Source: Ancylobacter lacus (GTDB taxonomy: Bacteria > Pseudomonadota > Alphaproteobacteria > Rhizobiales > Xanthobacteraceae). From it: a DNA stretch of 64,000 nucleotides. Each line of letters starts with the position of its first letter. The first letter of the stretch is position 1. Of this stretch, positions 17,277 to 25,186 are shown piece by piece. A program made the translations under genes and the position numbers. The stretch is from positions 1-64,000 of the forward strand of contig NZ_JAHBGE010000044.1 of the NCBI RefSeq assembly GCF_018390635.1, read 5' to 3'. Below the pieces are notes generated by a model. That model worked only from the letters and a program-made list of their open reading frames with translations, made no database searches and was not told the origin of the DNA.

Positions 17277-17825
17277 TCACGACTGCGCGAGCGCGCGGAC
17301 CTCCCCGAGCGTGAGCGGGCGCGGCGCCCGGCCGTCGAAATAGACGAAGCGCAGCCGGCGGCGGCGCGACACCATTTTCCCCGGCAGCGGGTCGTAGCGG
17401 AAGCTGCCGCCGCCGAAATGCGGCATCACCGCGCCGACATCGGTGGTTTCGTCGCTCTCCACCCGCAGCAAGGCGAGTTTCGCCCCGTCCGCCGCCACCG
17501 CCTCGAACGGCACATTGGCGAGGCGCAGGAAGGAGGTGGGGTCGCTGGCCGAGGCGAAGCCTTCCACGAAGGCCTGCTCGACGAGGTCGAGATCGGGCTC
17601 GGCGCGGGCCGGCTCCTCCGCCGCCGGCTGGGCCGGCAGATGCGGGGTCTGCCACTGCGCGGCACGGCGCGGGCCGTGGCCGTGATTGTGGCCGGGGCCG
17701 TGGGCAGGGTCGTGCGCATGGCTGTGGCCGTGATCATGGGCATGGTCGTGATCATGGCCGTGCGCATGCGCATGGCCGCCGCCGCCATGGTCGTGATGGT
17801 GGTGATGGTCGTGGCCGCGATGCAT
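17277..17825 (-). CDS. histidine-rich protein, possible nickel-binding accessory factor
   Basis: A 182-residue protein whose first 50 residues contain more than 20 His, alternating with Asp, Gly and Ala, as in the metal-storage tails of HypB, UreE and some transporters. The rest (about residues 75-182) is a small folded domain without a recognised family (VEQAFVEGFASASD, then PHFGGGSFRYDPLPG, then RRRRLRFVYFDGR). An AGGAG site precedes the ATG. It lies 118 bases downstream of the guanidine hydrolase gene on the same strand, so it may be cotranscribed. A role in handing or storing nickel for that enzyme is inferred from the His tail and position only. The tail could equally bind zinc or copper. 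Confidence 0.75.
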   Translation of the reverse strand: MHRGHDHHHHHDHGGGGHAHAHGHDHDHAHDHGHSHAHDPAHGPGHNHGHGPRRAAQWQTPHLPAQPAAEEPARAEPDLDLVEQAFVEGFASASDPTSFLRLANVPFEAVAADGAKLALLRVESDETTDVGAVMPHFGGGSFRYDPLPGKMVSRRRRLRFVYFDGRAPRPLTLGEVRALAQS

Positions 17826-17943
17826 GTCTCGGCTCCTGTCTTTCTCGGCTCGGCCAGTGCCGGCCGGATGTGCCGGCCGCCTTGCGCGATAGCCGGCGGC
17901 GGGTGCGCCCCGGCGGCCGCGGATGGCGGCCGGGGCGGGGCCC

Positions 17944-19149
17944 TCAGAAGTTCACCGGCTTGTCGATGATGTGCTTGTGGCTGCCGAGCTTGCCATGGGC
18001 GACCATGGAGCCGAGCGCCTCCACCACCACCCGCAGGCCGAACAGGGCGGTGATGTCCGAGGTGTCGTAGGGCGGGGAGACCTCGACCACCTCCAGCCCG
18101 CACAGCCCTTCGGCGGCGACGAGGCCGAGGATCTTCAGCGCCTCGCGCGGCAGGAAGCCGCCCGGCTCCGGCCAGCCGGTGCCCGGCACGAAGCCGCAGT
18201 CGATCGAATCGACGTCGAAGGAGATGTAGACCGCGTCGGCGTCCTTCCACGCGAGTTCGAGCGCGATCTCGGCGGCCTTCTCCAGCCCGATCTTCTCGAT
18301 GTCGTCGATGGTCAGCACGTTGGTGCCGCGCTTGCGGGCCTCCTGCACGCCGTAGCGCGGCACCTGCCAGCCGCCGATGCCGAGCTGCACGAGATTCTTG
18401 GGCGAGACATTCGGCAGGTTGGTCGCCCAGTACCACGGCGTGGTGTGCATCCGCTCGTCGAGATCCTTTTCCTGGATGTCGATGTGGCGGTCGAAATGGA
18501 TGATGCCGATGCGCTTGGAGGTGCATTCGGCGATGCCGCGCACGCAGGGAAAGCCGATCGAATGGTCGCCGCCCAGCATGATCGGCAGCGCCCCGGAGGA
18601 GAAGACGTGGGAGACGCCCTTCGAGATCTGGTCGAAGCTTTTTTCCAGATTGGCGGGGATGGTGAAGACGTCGCCGACGTCGCACAGCGTCATCTGCTCG
18701 CGCAGGTCGACGCCCAGCTCGTAATTATAGGGCGTGTAGAGCGCGGAGATGCGGCGGATGCCCTGCGGCCCGAACCGGGTGCCGGGGCGGTAGGTGGTGC
18801 CGCTGTCGAAGGGAATGCCGAGCACGGCGGCGTCATATTTGCCGACGTCGCGGACGTTCTCGATGTAGGGCGCCTTCATGAAGGTGTTGATGCCGGCGAA
18901 ATGGGGCAGCTCGCCGCGGGCGAAGGTGGGGATCGACTTGTCGTTGATCGAGTCCGCGCCGGGCAGGCCCATGTCGAGCGCCCATTGCTGCTCCTTGCGC
19001 CAGCCCTCCTCGGAGAGCTTCTCCTCGGCTTCCAGCGACTTCCAGCCCTGCATGCCCTTCACCTCGAAATTGGGGTGATGGCGGCGCAGGCGTTCGGCCC
19101 GGCCGAGCGGGCCGGCAATGCGGGTGGAGCGAAGGGGGAGGGGGCGCAT
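17944..19149 (-). CDS. gdmH: guanidine hydrolase (SpeB/ureohydrolase family, probably Ni-dependent)
   Basis: A 401-residue ureohydrolase with all six metal ligands: His of GGDHS, Asp-His-Asp of FDRHIDIQ and the two Asp of SFDVDSIDC. It carries a long N-terminal extension (to about residue 90) and motifs GINTFMKAPY, FGPQGIRRISALYTPYN and DERMHTTPWYWATN, which I associate with cyanobacterial GdmH rather than agmatinase. GdmH hydrolyses guanidine to urea and ammonia and needs nickel. The guanidine-I riboswitch directly upstream, and NikR and a nickel permease next door, support this over agmatinase. The ATG at 19149 follows a GAGGAG site. Homology-based callers will tend to name it agmatinase. 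Confidence 0.87.
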   Translation of the reverse strand: MRPLPLRSTRIAGPLGRAERLRRHHPNFEVKGMQGWKSLEAEEKLSEEGWRKEQQWALDMGLPGADSINDKSIPTFARGELPHFAGINTFMKAPYIENVRDVGKYDAAVLGIPFDSGTTYRPGTRFGPQGIRRISALYTPYNYELGVDLREQMTLCDVGDVFTIPANLEKSFDQISKGVSHVFSSGALPIMLGGDHSIGFPCVRGIAECTSKRIGIIHFDRHIDIQEKDLDERMHTTPWYWATNLPNVSPKNLVQLGIGGWQVPRYGVQEARKRGTNVLTIDDIEKIGLEKAAEIALELAWKDADAVYISFDVDSIDCGFVPGTGWPEPGGFLPREALKILGLVAAEGLCGLEVVEVSPPYDTSDITALFGLRVVVEALGSMVAHGKLGSHKHIIDKPVNF

Positions 19150-19239
19150 GGTCTCGAATCTCCTCGCCAGATGGCAGCGGTCCGGTTCCGGGTCGCGGCA
19201 GGGTCTGGCGGAAGCCGGCGGAGCACAACCCGGCGGCCT
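19150..19239 (-). promoter_or_regulatory. expression platform between riboswitch and gdmH
   Basis: The leader past the aptamer can form a 7-base-pair stem, CGCCAGA with TCTGGCG, whose 3' arm abuts the GAGGAG ribosome site of gdmH. No terminator with a T-run is visible here. That suggests control at the level of translation or an alternative pairing, but no folding was calculated. Confidence 0.4.
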
Positions 19240-19370
19240 TCGCTGCGACCCTCGCCGCACGAGCCTCCCGGGCTTTTGTCCCGCCGTGGACCCGGCGCAT
19301 GTCTCCGCCCCGGGCTGTCCCTCTCGGACCAGCGCATGCGGGGCATGCCGGAACCCTAGGGACGCAGCGA
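19240..19370 (-). ncRNA. guanidine-I riboswitch (ykkC-yxkD class)
   Basis: Read on the minus strand, the leader contains the conserved ykkC elements in the right order and spacing: CTAGGGTTCCGG, then CTGGTCCGAGAGG, then ACGGCGGGACAAAAGCCCGG followed by GAG. The ends pair as a P1 stem (CGCTGCG with CGCAGCG, extendable through CCCT/AGGG with one mismatch). This aptamer binds free guanidinium and normally switches on guanidine-handling genes. It lies 90 bases before gdmH. Confidence 0.93.
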
Positions 19371-19397
19371 GCCTAGCAGCGCCGAAGCCGGGGACAA
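19370..19397 (-). promoter_or_regulatory. possible promoter of the riboswitch-gdmH unit
   Basis: TTGTCC (19397-19392) and TAGGCT (19375-19370) are separated by 16 bases on the minus strand, between the hupE terminator and the riboswitch. The -10 box abuts the first P1 strand, so transcription from here would shorten P1; either P1 is shorter than drawn or another promoter is used. Confidence 0.35.
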
Positions 19398-19466
19398 GCC
19401 CGGATTTGCGGCAGCCGTCGCGCCGCCGCGCCGAAAGTTTCGGCGTGCCCGCCCTCCTGAAACGAA

Positions 19467-19492
19467 AGAACCCCGGCCGGGGCCGGGGTTCT
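19467..19492 (-). terminator. terminator after hupE
   Basis: A perfect 12-base inverted repeat (AGAACCCCGGCC / GGCCGGGGTTCT) with a very tight loop lies 59 bases past the hupE stop codon, followed on the minus strand by TTCGTTTC. It should separate hupE transcription from the riboswitch-controlled gdmH unit. Confidence 0.65.
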
Positions 19493-19550
19493 GTGAGGAA
19501 GACGGGAGCGCGAGGCGCCGCGAGCTGAAATGAAGCGCGGCGTCGCGGCC

Positions 19551-20231
19551 TCAGAGCGCGCCGGCCAGCAGGCCGACGCCGGCGATGGCGACGAGGGCGC
19601 CGACCGCCTGGCCAAGGCGCGGCGCGCGTTCCATCGCCAGCCGCTCGATGGCGAAGCCGAAGGCGATGCCGGCGGCGTGCAGCAGCGCGGTGGCGGCCAT
19701 GAAGCCGGCGCCATAGGCGAGGCCGGAGGCGCTCTCCGGCATCTCGGCGCCATGGGCGAAGCCGTGGAACACCGCGAAGGCGCCGACCATCGCCATCGCC
19801 GCGGCGAGCGGCCAGCGCACCGAGCGCAGCGCCACCGCCGCGCCGAGCGCGATGACCGAGGCGGCGATGCCGAGCTCGACATGCGGCAGGGCGAGACCGG
19901 CCATGCCGAGCGCGCCGCCGGCCGCCATCAGCACCACGAAGCTCGCCGGCACCGCCCACAGCGCGCGCCCGCCGAGATGGGCGGCGAAGAGGCCGACCGC
20001 CACCATCGCCAGCACATGGTCGATGCCGCTGACCGGGTGCAGGAAGCCGTGCACCAGGCCGGCCGCCTCGCCATGGCCGGGATGGGCGAAGGCGAGCGAC
20101 GGGCTCAGCGCGAACAGCGCGGCAAGGCCGCTCCGGCGCAGGGACATGGCGCTCCGGCGCAGGGACAGGGCGCCCCGGCGCAGGGACATGGCGCCCCGGC
20201 GCGGGCCGGTGGACGAGACGACGTTGGACAT
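19551..20231 (-). CDS. hupE: HupE/UreJ-family nickel permease
   Basis: A 226-residue membrane protein with a signal-like N terminus ending AFAHPGHGEAAG. HPVSGIDHVLAMV and the later FHGFAHGAEMPE are the HupE/UreJ metal-site motifs; six hydrophobic helices follow in the usual spacing. Members move nickel (some cobalt) for urease or hydrogenase. The ATG at 20231 has an AGGGG site. Residues 9-35 are unusual: a 7-residue repeat of the MSLRRGA type encoded by a 21-base tandem repeat, adding Arg ahead of the hydrophobic segment. Its place between NikR and the guanidine hydrolase suggests it supplies nickel for that enzyme. A terminator ends the transcript before gdmH. Confidence 0.88.
   Translation of the reverse strand: MSNVVSSTGPRRGAMSLRRGALSLRRSAMSLRRSGLAALFALSPSLAFAHPGHGEAAGLVHGFLHPVSGIDHVLAMVAVGLFAAHLGGRALWAVPASFVVLMAAGGALGMAGLALPHVELGIAASVIALGAAVALRSVRWPLAAAMAMVGAFAVFHGFAHGAEMPESASGLAYGAGFMAATALLHAAGIAFGFAIERLAMERAPRLGQAVGALVAIAGVGLLAGAL
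20129..20202 (-). repeat. 21-base tandem repeat inside the hupE signal region
   Basis: Three near-identical 21-base units (each like CGCTCCGGCGCAGGGACATGG on the plus strand, one base varied) at 20129, 20150 and 20171, plus a partial fourth. They encode 7-residue repeats at the N terminus of HupE and each contains a possible ATG or TTG-like start region. Confidence 0.8.
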
Positions 20232-20307
20232 GACAACCCCTCGGGATGGGCAGGCCGCCTTCGGAAGCTCCGGTGCGTACGTCTGCGTAAGATGATTTTG
20301 CCCAAAC

Positions 20308-20335
20308 AGCATATGCCGGGGCCACTGCCCGTCAA
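20308..20335 (-). promoter_or_regulatory. sigma-70-type promoter of hupE
   Basis: TTGACG (20335-20330) and TATGCT (20313-20308) are 16 bases apart on the minus strand, about 75 bases before the hupE ATG. A TGCGTA direct repeat lies just downstream (about 20272-20289) and could be a NikR-type site, though it does not match the E. coli consensus. Confidence 0.5.
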
Positions 20336-20395
20336 TCCCGTTTCGCGGCAGTGAACGCAGGTCACAGGGGACGCAAATCGCGTGCCGGGACGGCT

Positions 20396-20869
20396 TCAGC
20401 CCTCGTGGGGATGGAGGTGCGGATGCGGGTGCGGAGGGGCAGGCTCCGGCGTCTCGCCGGCCGGCAGCATGTGGAGGTGGCCATGGCGCACGCCGCGCTG
20501 GGTCACCACGCTGTCGGCGAGCCGGCTGAGCGCGCCGGCCGGGCCCCGCAGCACCGCCACTTCGAGGCAGGTGTCGTGGTCGAGATGCACATGCATCGAG
20601 GCCACCGCGAGGTCGTGGTGGCCGTGCTGCACCTGGGTGAGGCGGCGGGCCAGCTCCCGCTTCTCGTGGTCGTAGACATAGCTCAGCGTGGCGTAGCAGC
20701 GCGCCGCGCCCTCCGCCCCGGCCGGCGCCTCGGGCGCCTCGGGCGCCAGCAGCGCGCGGCGCAGGGCGTCGCGCAGCGCTTCGGAGCGGTTGGCGTAGCC
20801 GTGGCGCGCGGCATGGGCGTCGAGCGCTTCCAGCAGCGCGTCGTCGATGGTGAGGGTCACGCGCTGCAT
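20396..20869 (-). CDS. nikR: nickel-responsive regulator NikR
   Basis: A 157-residue ribbon-helix-helix/ACT repressor. The N-terminal [17 protein letters not shown] is the ribbon-helix-helix; [16 protein letters not shown] continues it. The nickel site residues are seen in [15 protein letters not shown] and HDTCLEV (His-His-His-Cys). The C terminus ends in an extra [12 protein letters not shown] tail that is not part of ordinary NikR and could bind additional metal. A linker of Ala/Pro (about residues 43-53) separates the domains. It lies 23 bases downstream of upp on the same strand, so the two may share a transcript, and it probably controls hupE. Confidence 0.93.
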
Positions 20870-20891: not shown

Positions 20892-21581
20892 TCACTTGGT
20901 GCCGAAGATCCGGTCGCCGGCATCGCCGATGCCCGGCACGATGTAGCCGTGGTCGTTGAGGTGGCTGTCGACCGCCGCGGCGTAGACCGGCACGTCGGGA
21001 TGGACCGAGTGGAACGCCTTCAGCCCCTCCGGCGCGGCGATGAGGCAGACGAACTTCACCGACTGGCAGCCCGCCGCCTTGACCTCGGACACCGCGGCGG
21101 CGGCGGAATTGCCGGTCGCCAGCATGGGGTCGAGCACGATGGCGGTGCGCTCGGAAATGTCGCGGGGCAGCTTGAGGTAGTATTCCACGGCGGCGAGCGA
21201 GACCGGGTCGCGGTAGAGCCCGACATGGCCGACCCGGGCGGCGGGCAGGATGTCCAGCATGCCTTCCAGAATGCCGCCGCCGGCGCGCAGCACCGAGACG
21301 AGGCAGAGCTTCTTGCCCGCCACCACCGGGGCCATCATCTTTTCCAGCGGGGTCTCGATCTCGATCAGCTCCAGCGGCGTGTCGCGCGTCACCTCATAGG
21401 CGAGCAGCATGCTGATCTCGCGCAGGAGCTGGCGGAACTCGTTCGCCGGCGTGCGCGAGCGGCGCATCAGGGTCAGCTTGTGCTGGATCAGCGGGTGATC
21501 GACCACGATGGTGGTGCCCTCCGCCCCGGCGACGGCGGGAGCATCGGGGGCGGTCGCGCTGGGGGCGGTCGCGTCTGTCAT
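20892..21581 (-). CDS. upp: uracil phosphoribosyltransferase
   Basis: A 229-residue enzyme converting uracil and PRPP to UMP. Motifs: [12 protein letters not shown], the ATP/PRPP loop [20 protein letters not shown] and the C-terminal [16 protein letters not shown] that marks UPRTases. About 20 extra Ala/Thr/Pro-rich residues precede the conserved core. It lies divergent from urc1, placing it with the URC genes, where UPRT makes the entry step of this uracil-degradation route. It overlaps nothing and is followed closely by nikR. Confidence 0.95.
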
Positions 21582-21982
21582 GAGGGCGTCGGCTCGCTCT
21601 GGAACGGTGGAGGGGCGCGCGGACGGCGTGCCGGGGGACAGGCTAGCGGAATTCGGGCCGGCTTGTCGCGGTCCTTGGCGCCACCCCGGCCGCGGGGGAG
21701 TGACGCCCTCTGGCGCCGCCCCGGCCGCGGGACTGGCGGCTCGGGCGCGGCTCTGCCCGCGCGGGATTGATGCTGTTGGCGCGGCCCTGCCGCGCCGGGT
21801 GCCGGTGTCCGGCTTCGGGGAAGCGCCGGTGCGCCGCAACCGGAGCGGGCGGCGTGGCTGGCGCGGGGCTGGCGTCGCCGCCGCGACCCCCTCTTGCGAA
21901 AGATGGGGATTCGCGCTCTGCTTCGTTGCTTCCCTGCTCCGGTTGCGCCCGTTGCGCCGCCGGCCGAGAAGCGAGTGAGTCC
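21582..21982. other. divergent intergenic region upp/urc1, 401 bases
   Basis: No gene is visible. The region is GC-rich and should hold promoters for upp-nikR and for the urc genes, but no confident -35/-10 pair or operator could be picked by eye. Confidence 0.4.
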
Positions 21983-23440
<1,458 letters not shown>

Positions 23441-23503
23441 GGCCGCACGCCGCCCGCGAGTCGCGCACGGGCGGCGCGAGATTCCCTGGCGACCGGAACG
23501 GAC

Positions 23504-23806
23504 ATGGCCGGCGAAGACGACGAATATGTATATGACGAGGCGACCGGCGAATGGCGCCCCGCCTCCGAGATGGCGGCGGCGGCCGCGGCGGCCGCCGTGG
23601 TGCGCGACGCCTCCGGCAACGTGCTGGCGGACGGTGATTCCGTGGTGCTGGTGAAGGACCTCAAGGTGAAGGGCGCCGGCCAGACCCTGAAGCAGGGCAC
23701 GGTGATCCGCTCCATCCGCCTGACCGACAACCCGGACGAGATCGACTGCCGGCACGAGACCATCAAGGGCCTCGTGCTGCGCACCGAGTTCGTGCGCAAG
23801 CGCTGA
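23504..23806 (+). CDS. PhnA-domain protein
   Basis: A 100-residue protein. Residues 32-100 match the C-terminal PhnA/YjdM fold: VVRDASGNVLADGDSVVLVK, LKVKGAGQTLKQGT, DNPDEIDCRHE and RTEFVRKR. The N-terminal zinc ribbon of PhnA is absent, replaced by an acidic stretch and a poly-Ala run (MAAAAAAAAVV). PhnA-domain genes have no settled role; the name phosphonate protein is historical. It lies 63 bases after urc1 and about 150 before urc4, so it is probably part of the same unit, but a function in the pathway is not known. Confidence 0.85.
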   Translation: MAGEDDEYVYDEATGEWRPASEMAAAAAAAAVVRDASGNVLADGDSVVLVKDLKVKGAGQTLKQGTVIRSIRLTDNPDEIDCRHETIKGLVLRTEFVRKR

Positions 23807-23956
23807 CAGGCGCCCCCCGGCCGGTCGAGCGCCGGGCGGGGCCTCATCGTTCTTCCCGCCGGCGCCGGAAGGGCCGGCGGGGAGGCTCCGCAGTCTCGGC
23901 CGGCCCGCAGGCGCTGCGGCCGGCGGTCCGTCCCCGCGACGGCGCAGGGAGAACCC

Positions 23957-25186
23957 ATGACCCCGCCCGAACTTCTCGCCCTGCGCTCGCCCTCGGCGGT
24001 GCGCGCCCGCTCGCATCAGGTGCTGGACCATGTGCGCGCCGGCCGCTCGCCCCATTTCACCGTCGAGGAGGCCGCGCTCGGCGAGGTGGCCGACTATGTG
24101 GCGGCGGTGACGCGGCAGGACTATCCCACCCTCGACATTCCCTATCACAGCCGCTGGCGCCACTTCGCCGCCGGCGGCCGCGACCGCTGGGCGGCGCTGG
24201 CGGCGGACGCGCTCGCCGCGCTGGACGCCCGCGAGCGCGCCCGCACCATGGTCGACCTCGCCGTGGTGAGCGTGCTGCTGGACGCCGGGGCCGGCGACGC
24301 GTGGCGCTACCGCGAGCCGGGCGGGCTGGTGATCGGCCGCTCCGAAGGGCTGGCGGTGGCGAGCCTCGCCATGTTCGCGGCCGGCGGCTTCTCCTTCTCC
24401 GCGCAGGACCCGCTCCGGGTCGACGCCACCGCGCTGATCGGCATCGACGCGGCGCGGCTCGGCGCCTTCTTCCAGGCCGGGCCGGACAACCCGCTGGTCG
24501 GGCTGGAGGGACGGGTGACGCTGCTCAACCGGCTCGGCCAGGCGCTGGCGGCGCGGCCCGACCTGTTCGGCGCCAACCCGCCGCGGCCGGGCGGGCTGGT
24601 CGACGCGCTGGCGGCGGAGGCGCCGCTGGGCCGGCTGCCGGCGGCGCGCATCCTCGCCGCGCTGCTCGACGGGCTGGCCCCGATCTGGCCGGCCGGGCTG
24701 GTGGTGGAGGGGGTCGCGCTCGGCGATGTCGGCCGCCACCCCGCCATCGTCACCGGCGATCTTTCGGAAGGGCTGGTGCCGTTCCACAAGCTGTCGCAGT
24801 GGCTGACCTATTCGCTGCTGGAGCCGTTCGAGGCGGCCGGGCTCGCGGTGACCGACCTCGACGACCTCACCGCGCTGCCGGAATACCGCAATGGCGGGCT
24901 GCTGCTCGACCTCGGGCTGGTGGTGCCGCGCGCGCCGCTGGACCCCGCGCAGAAGCACCCGCCGGGTTCGGAGATGGTGGTGGAGTGGCGCGCCCTCACC
25001 GTGGCGCTGCTGGACCTGCTGGCGGACGCGGTGCGCGAGCGGCTCGGCTTCACGCCCGACGCCTTTCCGCTCGCCAAGCTGCTGCAGGGCGGCACCTGGA
25101 CCGCCGGCCGCCGCATCGCCGCCGAGCGGCGCCCGCCCGCCGGGCCGCCGCCGCTCGCCATCCTCGCCGACGGCACGGTGTTCTGA
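23957..25186 (+). CDS. urc4: DUF1688 protein, URC4-like uracil catabolism enzyme
   Basis: A 409-residue protein spanning the full DUF1688 family. Visible conserved parts include HFTVEEAAL, DYPTLDIPYHSRWRHF, AWRYREPGGLVIGRSEGLAV, QDPLRVDATALIG and FHKLSQWLTYSLLEP. In yeast Urc4 acts with Urc1 after uracil has been converted to a nucleotide; its chemical step is not firmly defined. Adjacent upp, urc1 and urc4 are the diagnostic bacterial URC set. No signal or membrane segment is seen. The start at 23957 is preceded by a GCAGGGAGA site. Confidence 0.93.
   Translation: MTPPELLALRSPSAVRARSHQVLDHVRAGRSPHFTVEEAALGEVADYVAAVTRQDYPTLDIPYHSRWRHFAAGGRDRWAALAADALAALDARERARTMVDLAVVSVLLDAGAGDAWRYREPGGLVIGRSEGLAVASLAMFAAGGFSFSAQDPLRVDATALIGIDAARLGAFFQAGPDNPLVGLEGRVTLLNRLGQALAARPDLFGANPPRPGGLVDALAAEAPLGRLPAARILAALLDGLAPIWPAGLVVEGVALGDVGRHPAIVTGDLSEGLVPFHKLSQWLTYSLLEPFEAAGLAVTDLDDLTALPEYRNGGLLLDLGLVVPRAPLDPAQKHPPGSEMVVEWRALTVALLDLLADAVRERLGFTPDAFPLAKLLQGGTWTAGRRIAAERRPPAGPPPLAILADGTVF

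Follow-up and report, generated by a model that had tools for sequence, protein, structure and literature searches.

Locus organization

The window (the whole stretch of Ancylobacter lacus DNA that was analysed, 64,000 nucleotides) encodes, between positions 17277 and 20869 and entirely on the reverse strand, what look like two neighbouring transcriptional units. The first is composed of nikR (20396..20869), coding for a nickel-responsive regulator (NF002815, 189.6 bits vs a cut-off of 83; PF08753, 106.2 bits; TIGR02793, 172.1 bits, just below its cut-off of 175.45), and of a gene for a HupE/UreJ-type nickel permease (hupE, 19551..20231; PF04955, 184.4 bits, cut-off 23). The second unit starts with a guanidine-I (ykkC-yxkD) riboswitch aptamer (19263..19370), which is followed by gdmH (17944..19149), coding for a probable nickel-dependent guanidine hydrolase (guanidinase) of 401 aa, and by a gene (17277..17825) for a His-rich protein of 182 aa that belongs to an unnamed family. 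We refer to the latter as the partner (by its synteny with gdmH) and regard it as a probable nickel-loading factor. The His-rich ORF, the permease and NikR had all been listed in an initial annotation of this DNA and were recovered here.

Guanidine-I aptamer and leader

The RF00442 model was matched over its full length (model positions 1-107; 19370-19263, reverse strand) with 80.5 bits (gathering cut-off 63, E = 9.6e-13), the match being the sole one above a gathering threshold in an Rfam scan of the whole window and the only RF00442 match in the genome. The initial annotation had placed such an aptamer 90 nt ahead of a SpeB-family gene; the covariance search bears out the aptamer and its position before this gene, while the spacing to the start codon of gdmH (an ATG preceded by GAGGAG) amounts to 113 nt. 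In this leader the pattern scan recovered no terminator-like site (i.e. no intrinsic terminator), and its folding was no better than that of shuffled sequences (z-score -0.31).

Aptamers scored above the Rfam threshold in 19 of 20 loci from the same order. The named loci are the best 80 of 537 matches, a set biased toward close relatives and sharing at least seven contigs (judged by length) with the order set; a custom model built from the aptamers of the window and of the order loci matched in 76 of them. The four loci lacking a match were L096, L097, L113 and L129; in the last three, under 2 kb of sequence precedes gdmH. In one locus (L077) the aptamer was situated 7.5 kb upstream and the ABC transporter genes were weakly similar.

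Identity of the enzyme

GdmH is a member of the arginase/ureohydrolase family (PF00491, 256.6 bits, cut-off 22). Its best scores against PDB sequences were obtained for the guanidinases of Synechocystis (7esr/7oi1, 547 bits; 66% identity over the matched part) and Nitrospira inopinata (9fek, 527 bits; 59% identity), the next family (guanidinobutyrase) reaching 179 bits. All ten diagnostic residues (T119, H196, D220, H222, D224, H235, D312, D314, W326 and E356), that is, the six metal ligands and the guanidine residues Thr, His, Trp and Glu (N. inopinata numbering per PMC11410670), were present, and none was missing from any of the 100 loci with a partner gene that were checked (two sets with some genomes in common). 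In a tree of 46 rows (with long outgroup branches) GdmH formed a clade with the two characterised guanidinases (support 99/95), apart from the agmatinases. An agmatinase identity, which the initial annotation had suspected to be a mislabelling, is rejected by this placement, by the PDB scores, by the retained recognition Thr and Trp, and by a TIGR01230 score (156.9 bits) below the cut-off of 174.3. Judging from its sequence, GdmH very probably degrades guanidine with nickel, and the aptamer together with the enzyme is a new member of an already known guanidinase system. In two annotated plasmid records the enzyme is named agmatinase family protein and the partner hypothetical protein, labels that hide the pair. 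In one genome (L031/L167, G063) the start of gdmH was read in a different frame.

Co-occurrence of the partner with the guanidinase

The partner gene was found directly 3' of gdmH in all the loci fetched from the order (20/20) and in all the wider loci (20/20), as well as in all 80 named loci (best 80 of 537 matches), in 71 of which its first in-frame Met is at most 60 nt away from the stop codon of gdmH. Within the order, it stood behind the guanidinase in each of the 22 genomes with a Trp-type enzyme (i.e. one with the guanidine Trp). A search of 199 genomes for the partner matched 34, these 22 gdmH genomes included; the other 12 gave weak matches confined almost only to the His tract and were left uncounted, two of them reaching further (G050, residues 125-173, 22 bits; G035, residues 2-155, 21.6 bits, with no match to the partner family profile). 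Across 398 Pseudomonadota genomes gdmH and the partner occurred in the same seven, and across 337 genomes of the class the partner accompanied all 11 near-full-length gdmH genes (the Trp was checked for part of these 11). Three gdmH matches in the class sample were without partner, the contig ending before the position of the Trp in two (G627 and G578), and among the 12 partner hits the sole case without gdmH was a 5'-truncated remnant (L165, G680). From 72,556 plasmid records, the seven that carry the partner are the seven alphaproteobacterial gdmH records; Trp-type guanidinases on three actinobacterial plasmid records were found without it. It was also missing, in the sequence stretches examined, from the surroundings of five paralogues (L158-L161, L163) in which Thr or Ser replaces the guanidine Trp.

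The strongest nickel link at the locus is this partner, conserved with the guanidinase across alphaproteobacteria, a link that the initial annotation overlooked. As it accompanies every Trp-type alphaproteobacterial guanidinase checked, it offers a concrete candidate for nickel supply. The pair is present in culturable hosts (Sinorhizobium fredii NGR234, Mesorhizobium and Roseibium), which makes the question directly testable. One partner-bearing locus (L113) is labelled Anaerolineae and its guanidinase is 75% identical to that of the window; misbinning is possible.

Properties of the partner protein

The partner is composed of a His tract (residues ~1-52) and a folded domain of ~110 aa (residues ~74-182; predicted structure with pLDDT 87.7). 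Among the best 80 of 537 matches, the densest 20 residues held a median of 11 His, all 80 proteins reached at least 4 His per 20 residues somewhere (tract position and length vary), and Cys was nearly absent (14 in 80 proteins). The tract is thin in L113 (4 His in 20 residues) and sits at the opposite end of the protein in L098. Apart from supplying nickel, His-rich tracts can also serve in metal storage or detoxification.

Searches of Pfam, NCBIfam and the PDB recovered nothing credible. Against the Pfam and NCBIfam profiles the full-length window protein matched only Zip (E = 0.58, on the His tract); for the domain, NCBIfam yielded nothing at E 0.1 across 67 members and Pfam just two stray DUF hits, each from a single member, and PDB sequences gave 0 matches at E up to 10. 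Fold searches with the domain returned no Foldseek hit at E 0.001 (the best had E 0.42) and no VIA-align match with Z of at least 5 (best Z 3.8), although such a negative does not prove that a related structure is lacking. The weak fold rows were mostly tudor-like and ribosomal chains. A relationship to HypA/HypB (GhaA/GhaB) was rejected, as the curated HypA and HypB models gave no match. Among the papers listed by a literature search none describes the partner gene, Funck et al. 2022 and its supplement being outside its reach.

The partner resembles the nickel chaperones HypA, HypB and UreE and the His-rich Hpn proteins in how it would work, as a small accessory of a nickel enzyme that carries a His-rich stretch. 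It differs in having hardly any Cys and in finding no credible counterpart in Pfam, NCBIfam or the PDB.

NikR and HupE

The initial annotation had joined the permease and NikR to the guanidine genes in one catabolic module; its core (aptamer and guanidinase) is upheld by the scores and the tree, the inclusion of hupE and nikR is not supported. Between hupE and the riboswitch unit, 3' of hupE, a pattern scan placed a terminator-like hairpin (19492-19467, reverse strand, 11 pairs) followed by a T-rich tail, although such sites are statistically weak (3 in the 4-kb scan vs a shuffle mean of 1.6). Since hupE and nikR are situated upstream of the aptamer on the same strand, with this hairpin between, they are not among the genes that the riboswitch would control downstream. 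A promoter-like match (20335-20308, reverse strand) precedes hupE, and a NikR-box-like site (20287..20314, reverse strand) overlaps its promoter-like -10 element, suggesting that NikR may control hupE. This site was located by alignment with that of A. sonchi (GTATGC-N16-TCATAC), which departs from the NikR consensus by one mismatch, the window site having three; a 41-base pattern spanning the site had no match in the window, and the comparison rests on a direct alignment of the two stretches. The A. sonchi locus (L058) likewise has nikR and hupE ahead of the aptamer and gdmH, at a hupE-aptamer interval of ~850 nt. Among the best 80 of 537 matches, NikR was recorded within 8 kb of the guanidinase in a single locus, and a same-strand hupE in 19 (16 downstream, 3 upstream).

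Comparison with known systems

The Synechocystis PCC 6803 GdmH operon (Sll1077) shares with the window the guanidine-I riboswitch, a nickel-dependent guanidinase with the same ten residues and accessory nickel genes within the operon. These accessory genes encode a HypA/HypB-type pair, GhaA/GhaB (PMC12930504, PMC8390497), whereas in the window the enzyme is followed by a His-rich partner of another family; the ABC transporter of the Synechocystis operon, found also in most alphaproteobacterial relatives, is missing from the window. N. inopinata shares the enzyme clade, the ten residues and the upstream riboswitch, but has an APC superfamily permease, and PMC11410670 states the nickel supply of the comammox guanidinase as unclear, with no nickel accessory gene or loader known. 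As the actinobacterial Trp-type records also lack it, the partner is not required by the enzyme class as such. The metformin/dimethylguanidine hydrolase operons of Aminobacter and Pseudomonas likewise combine nickel-dependent ureohydrolases with nickel accessory genes and a nearby hupE, and differ by a two-subunit enzyme, a hypA/hypB pair and another substrate (PMC11399263). The five sister ureohydrolases (53-57% identity to the window's GdmH) retain all six metal ligands, and one (L158) has hupE directly downstream; they differ by the replaced Trp, the lack of an aptamer match and a His-rich insert within the enzyme itself.

Proposed function and alternatives

The aptamer, the enzyme identity, the partner family, the operon order and the co-occurrence are computational observations, and we think it likely that they reflect a guanidine-inducible degradation unit in which the partner loads nickel into GdmH, next to a separate HupE/NikR unit. 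Guanidinium would bind the aptamer and switch on gdmH and the downstream partner gene; GdmH would convert guanidine to urea and ammonia, the urea being handled by a urease encoded elsewhere in the genome, and HupE, under NikR control, would import nickel. The partner would bind Ni2+ through its His tract, dock on GdmH through its folded domain (a tentative role, as the domain has neither conserved His or Cys nor a confident fold match) and deliver the metal to the active site, presumably as a dedicated factor in place of GhaA/GhaB. In the literature found, the published accessory route for guanidinase nickel is the HypA/HypB-type pair, so that the partner is a candidate second route; that it founds a new metallochaperone family (an apparently nucleotide-independent, guanidinase-only loader replacing this pair in the alphaproteobacterial branch) is a bet we would take at even odds. 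The partner may also raise heterologous guanidinase activity.

The partner could instead work as Hpn does in Helicobacter, storing or buffering nickel to shield the cell during guanidinase synthesis with no direct hand-over, as its high His density and scarce Cys (best 80 of 537 matches) would allow; we hold this to be unlikely, for a conserved ~110-aa domain is needless for simple storage and the partner is coupled to the guanidinase in the genome samples searched. The one-to-one gene coupling and tight spacing would also suit a stabilising or regulatory GdmH subunit with a secondary His tract, in the manner of the second metformin hydrolase subunit (heteromeric nickel ureohydrolases being known; PMC11399263). 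This is less probable still: PMC11410670 describes the N. inopinata enzyme as a homohexamer similar to the Synechocystis one, and the His enrichment recurs in 80/80 partners (best 80 of 537 matches).

We give very little credence to a single dedicated module of riboswitch, guanidinase, His-rich protein, HupE and NikR, as initially annotated; all five do lie together on one strand, A. sonchi repeats the nikR/hupE order and hupE follows the partner gene in 16/80 loci, yet the terminator-like site and the aptamer separate hupE from gdmH, NikR is near in 1/80 (both counts from the best 80 of 537 matches) and the A. sonchi interval is long. It is just as improbable that guanidine hydrolysis is a side reaction of an enzyme acting mainly on another guanidino compound: the millimolar Km of the characterised guanidinases, a concern raised by their authors themselves (PMC11410670), would fit this, but the upstream aptamer, the Thr/Trp pair and the tree position argue against it.

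Nickel, transporter and urease genes elsewhere in the genomes

HypB scored above its cut-off in 5 of the 21 gdmH genomes and was located beside gdmH in none; as the window's own genome is one with HypB, a HypA/HypB nickel route may operate in this organism. This genome also carries, on another contig, an ABC transporter (three genes, L168, no aptamer match) whose substrate-binding protein is 47% identical to that of A. gelatini. Urease alpha was above its cut-off in 20 of the 21 gdmH genomes. The exception is G031, in whose locus (L029; no aptamer match and no ABC genes in the stretch examined) the gdmH match starts at residue 107.

The guanidine-I aptamer and the enzyme it precedes

A scan of the 64-kb window against Rfam returned guanidine-I as the sole family above threshold, with a full-length RF00442 aptamer (19370-19263, minus strand; 80.5 bits vs. 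a gathering score of 63) that stops 113 nt short of the ATG of gdmH (19149-17944, minus strand, 401 codons), and which is the only match of its kind in the genome. The aptamer put forward in the initial annotation is borne out, and its view that the downstream enzyme is a probable guanidinase, for which the agmatinase label would be wrong, is supported by sequence. Among solved structures, GdmH scores highest with Synechocystis GdmH (7esr/7oi1) and N. inopinata guanidinase (9fek), at 547 and 527 bits, against 179 bits for guanidinobutyrase, the next family. The enzyme keeps ten diagnostic residues (T119, H196, D220, H222, D224, H235, D312, D314, W326 and E356), the counterparts of every metal ligand (six) and guanidine residue (four) that PMC11410670 gives for the N. 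inopinata enzyme. In a maximum-likelihood tree of 46 rows, GdmH fell inside an alphaproteobacterial clade (26 rows, support 100/99) nested in a 29-row clade with Synechocystis and N. inopinata (99/95); the genome's six other arginase-family proteins and the PDB entries 3nio, 3nip and 1gq6 lie apart. A long-branch warning concerned mainly the outgroups, whose order is unreliable. The agmatinase equivalog model stayed below its cut-off (156.9 vs. 174.3), and on this score and the tree grouping we rejected agmatinase identity and, judging from sequence, regard the enzyme as a guanidinase. Its closest named relatives (92-95% identity) belong to Ancylobacter species and Xanthobacteraceae bins, and in annotated plasmid records such genes are labelled ‘agmatinase family protein’. 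The riboswitch and guanidinase are a further case of an already known system.

A His-rich partner protein

The new element is the unnamed protein family encoded 118 nt behind gdmH (17825-17277, minus strand, 182 codons), which carries a long His tract at its start. Across 80 such partner proteins (median length 163 aa) the N-terminal part holds a median of 17 His, the densest 20 residues a median of 11 (minimum 4, in L113), and Cys is scarce (14 in total). In one homologue (L098:9175-9522) no His tract is present at the N-terminus and the C-terminus carries one instead, which suggests that the presence of the tract matters and its position does not. In an alignment of 67 sequences, the folded part shows 3 columns without variation and 14 with almost none, and no His or Cys is among these conserved positions. 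Its predicted structure, of good quality (mean pLDDT 87.7), comprises two helices, a body rich in beta structure and a final helix. We found no credible sequence-family match in Pfam, NCBIfam or PDB, no convincing fold match among solved structures, and no description among the matches listed in our literature search (the 2022 discovery paper lay outside its scope). HypA and HypB were ruled out as identities by curated models; of 21 guanidinase genomes, 5 (this one included) have a HypB above cut-off, and none has it beside gdmH.

Gene order and co-occurrence in relatives

When 199 genomes of the order were searched with the His-rich protein, 34 matched, and in all of the best 20 loci the guanidinase lies directly upstream of the partner on the same strand. 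The usual order in 20 wider loci is aptamer, ABC substrate-binding protein, permease, ATPase, guanidinase, partner and sometimes hupE, with the aptamer above the Rfam threshold in 19 and the ABC importer genes in 18. Among the 80 named loci (the best 80 of 537 guanidinase-profile matches) the partner is directly downstream of the guanidinase in every one, the aptamer upstream in 76, a similar ABC substrate-binding gene present in 69, and hupE on the same strand in 19 (16 downstream, 3 upstream). The ABC genes are missing, and the aptamer directly precedes gdmH, in the window, in the Ancylobacter/Xanthobacteraceae loci L057-L062 and in L086; A. gelatini has them. A second ABC importer, related to that of A. 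gelatini, is encoded on contig 33 of the genome studied here (no aptamer match was found there), and is a possible replacement.

With limits of E 1e-90 for the guanidinase and E 1e-3 for the partner, both were confined to the same 7 of 398 Pseudomonadota genomes, and adjacent in all 7. The class sample (337 genomes) contained 14 guanidinase matches, 11 of them near-full-length and each with an adjacent partner; of the others, two end at contig ends and one (L163), without the partner, has Thr in place of the guanidine-recognising Trp. The lone partner match without guanidinase in this sample is a 5'-truncated remnant behind ABC-type genes (L165:7004-7261), a trace of operon loss. At 1e-60, 26 of the 199 order genomes matched the guanidinase; the Trp is present in all 22 that have the partner beside it, and is replaced by Thr or Ser in the four that do not (L158-L161), around which no aptamer match was found. 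All ten residues are kept in 100 of 100 partner-bearing loci checked (the two sets of loci share some genomes). Fisher values for co-occurrence (8.9e-20, class; 3.4e-15, phylum sample) overstate the case, because the counts share descent and are not independent; the better argument is the paralogue control, i.e. Trp-less enzymes without partner (five members with the position visible). These sister ureohydrolases (L158-L161, L163) carry a His-rich insert within the enzyme, and in L158 hupE is directly downstream; they may represent another Ni ureohydrolase.

Among 72,556 plasmid records the guanidinase occurred in 11 and the partner in 7, exactly the alphaproteobacterial ones. All four actinobacterial records lack the partner and three of them have the Trp; the partner is therefore a lineage-specific solution and no general guanidinase requirement. 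On the partner-less Rubrobacter indicoceani plasmid (L137), a guanidine-I aptamer match and guanidinase adjoin a sodium:solute symporter, a formamidase (other strand) and urease genes.

Proposed route of nickel loading

Most likely, the partner is a nickel collector and donor for the guanidinase on which it docks. This reading draws on the coupling of the two genes, the presence of a His tract, the dependence of this enzyme family on nickel and precedent in other systems. Guanidinium would turn on the gdmH-partner unit; the partner would gather nickel on its His tract, dock on the guanidinase and hand the metal over; the enzyme would yield urea and ammonia, and urease, which 20 of 21 guanidinase genomes including this one encode above cut-off, would consume the urea. 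The Synechocystis operon is described as containing two Ni-delivery proteins (PMC12186494), operons of gdmH-like genes with hypA, hypB and ABC genes are noted in a range of microbes (PMC8390497), and metformin hydrolase is stated to require hypA/hypB, with hupE adjacent (PMC11399263). For the comammox guanidinase the route of nickel loading is called unclear (PMC11410670); to this question the partner family offers a testable answer.

The hupE-nikR pair and flanking genes

The single module including HupE and NikR that was initially annotated was not supported. Both hupE (20231-19551, minus strand) and nikR (20869-20396, minus strand) match curated models and lie upstream of the aptamer, from which they are parted by a terminator-like hairpin behind hupE (19492-19467; the scan gave 3 sites of this type, with 1.6 expected), and nikR occurs in 1 of the 80 named loci (best 80 of 537). 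The pair seems to form a unit of its own, of use to a nickel enzyme but no part of the conserved module. Ahead of hupE in A. sonchi, GTATGC-N16-TCATAC has 1 mismatch to the NikR consensus (chance expectation in that locus, 0.12 matches at <=2 mismatches); the aligned site in the window (20287-20314, minus strand) is more diverged (3 mismatches) and overlaps the -10 of a promoter-like match. From these sites, hupE is probably nickel-responsive through NikR.

Beside the unit (20892-25186) lie genes for a uracil phosphoribosyltransferase, a GTP cyclohydrolase II-like protein (PF12471/PF00925), a PhnA-domain protein and DUF1688, which we take to be the URC uracil-degradation set; URC degradation likewise yields urea. 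In A. sonchi (L058), nikR is preceded by DNA resembling the terminal part of this phosphoribosyltransferase gene. The N-terminal region of HupE (20130-20205) holds short SLRR repeat units, which in the DNA look like copies in tandem.
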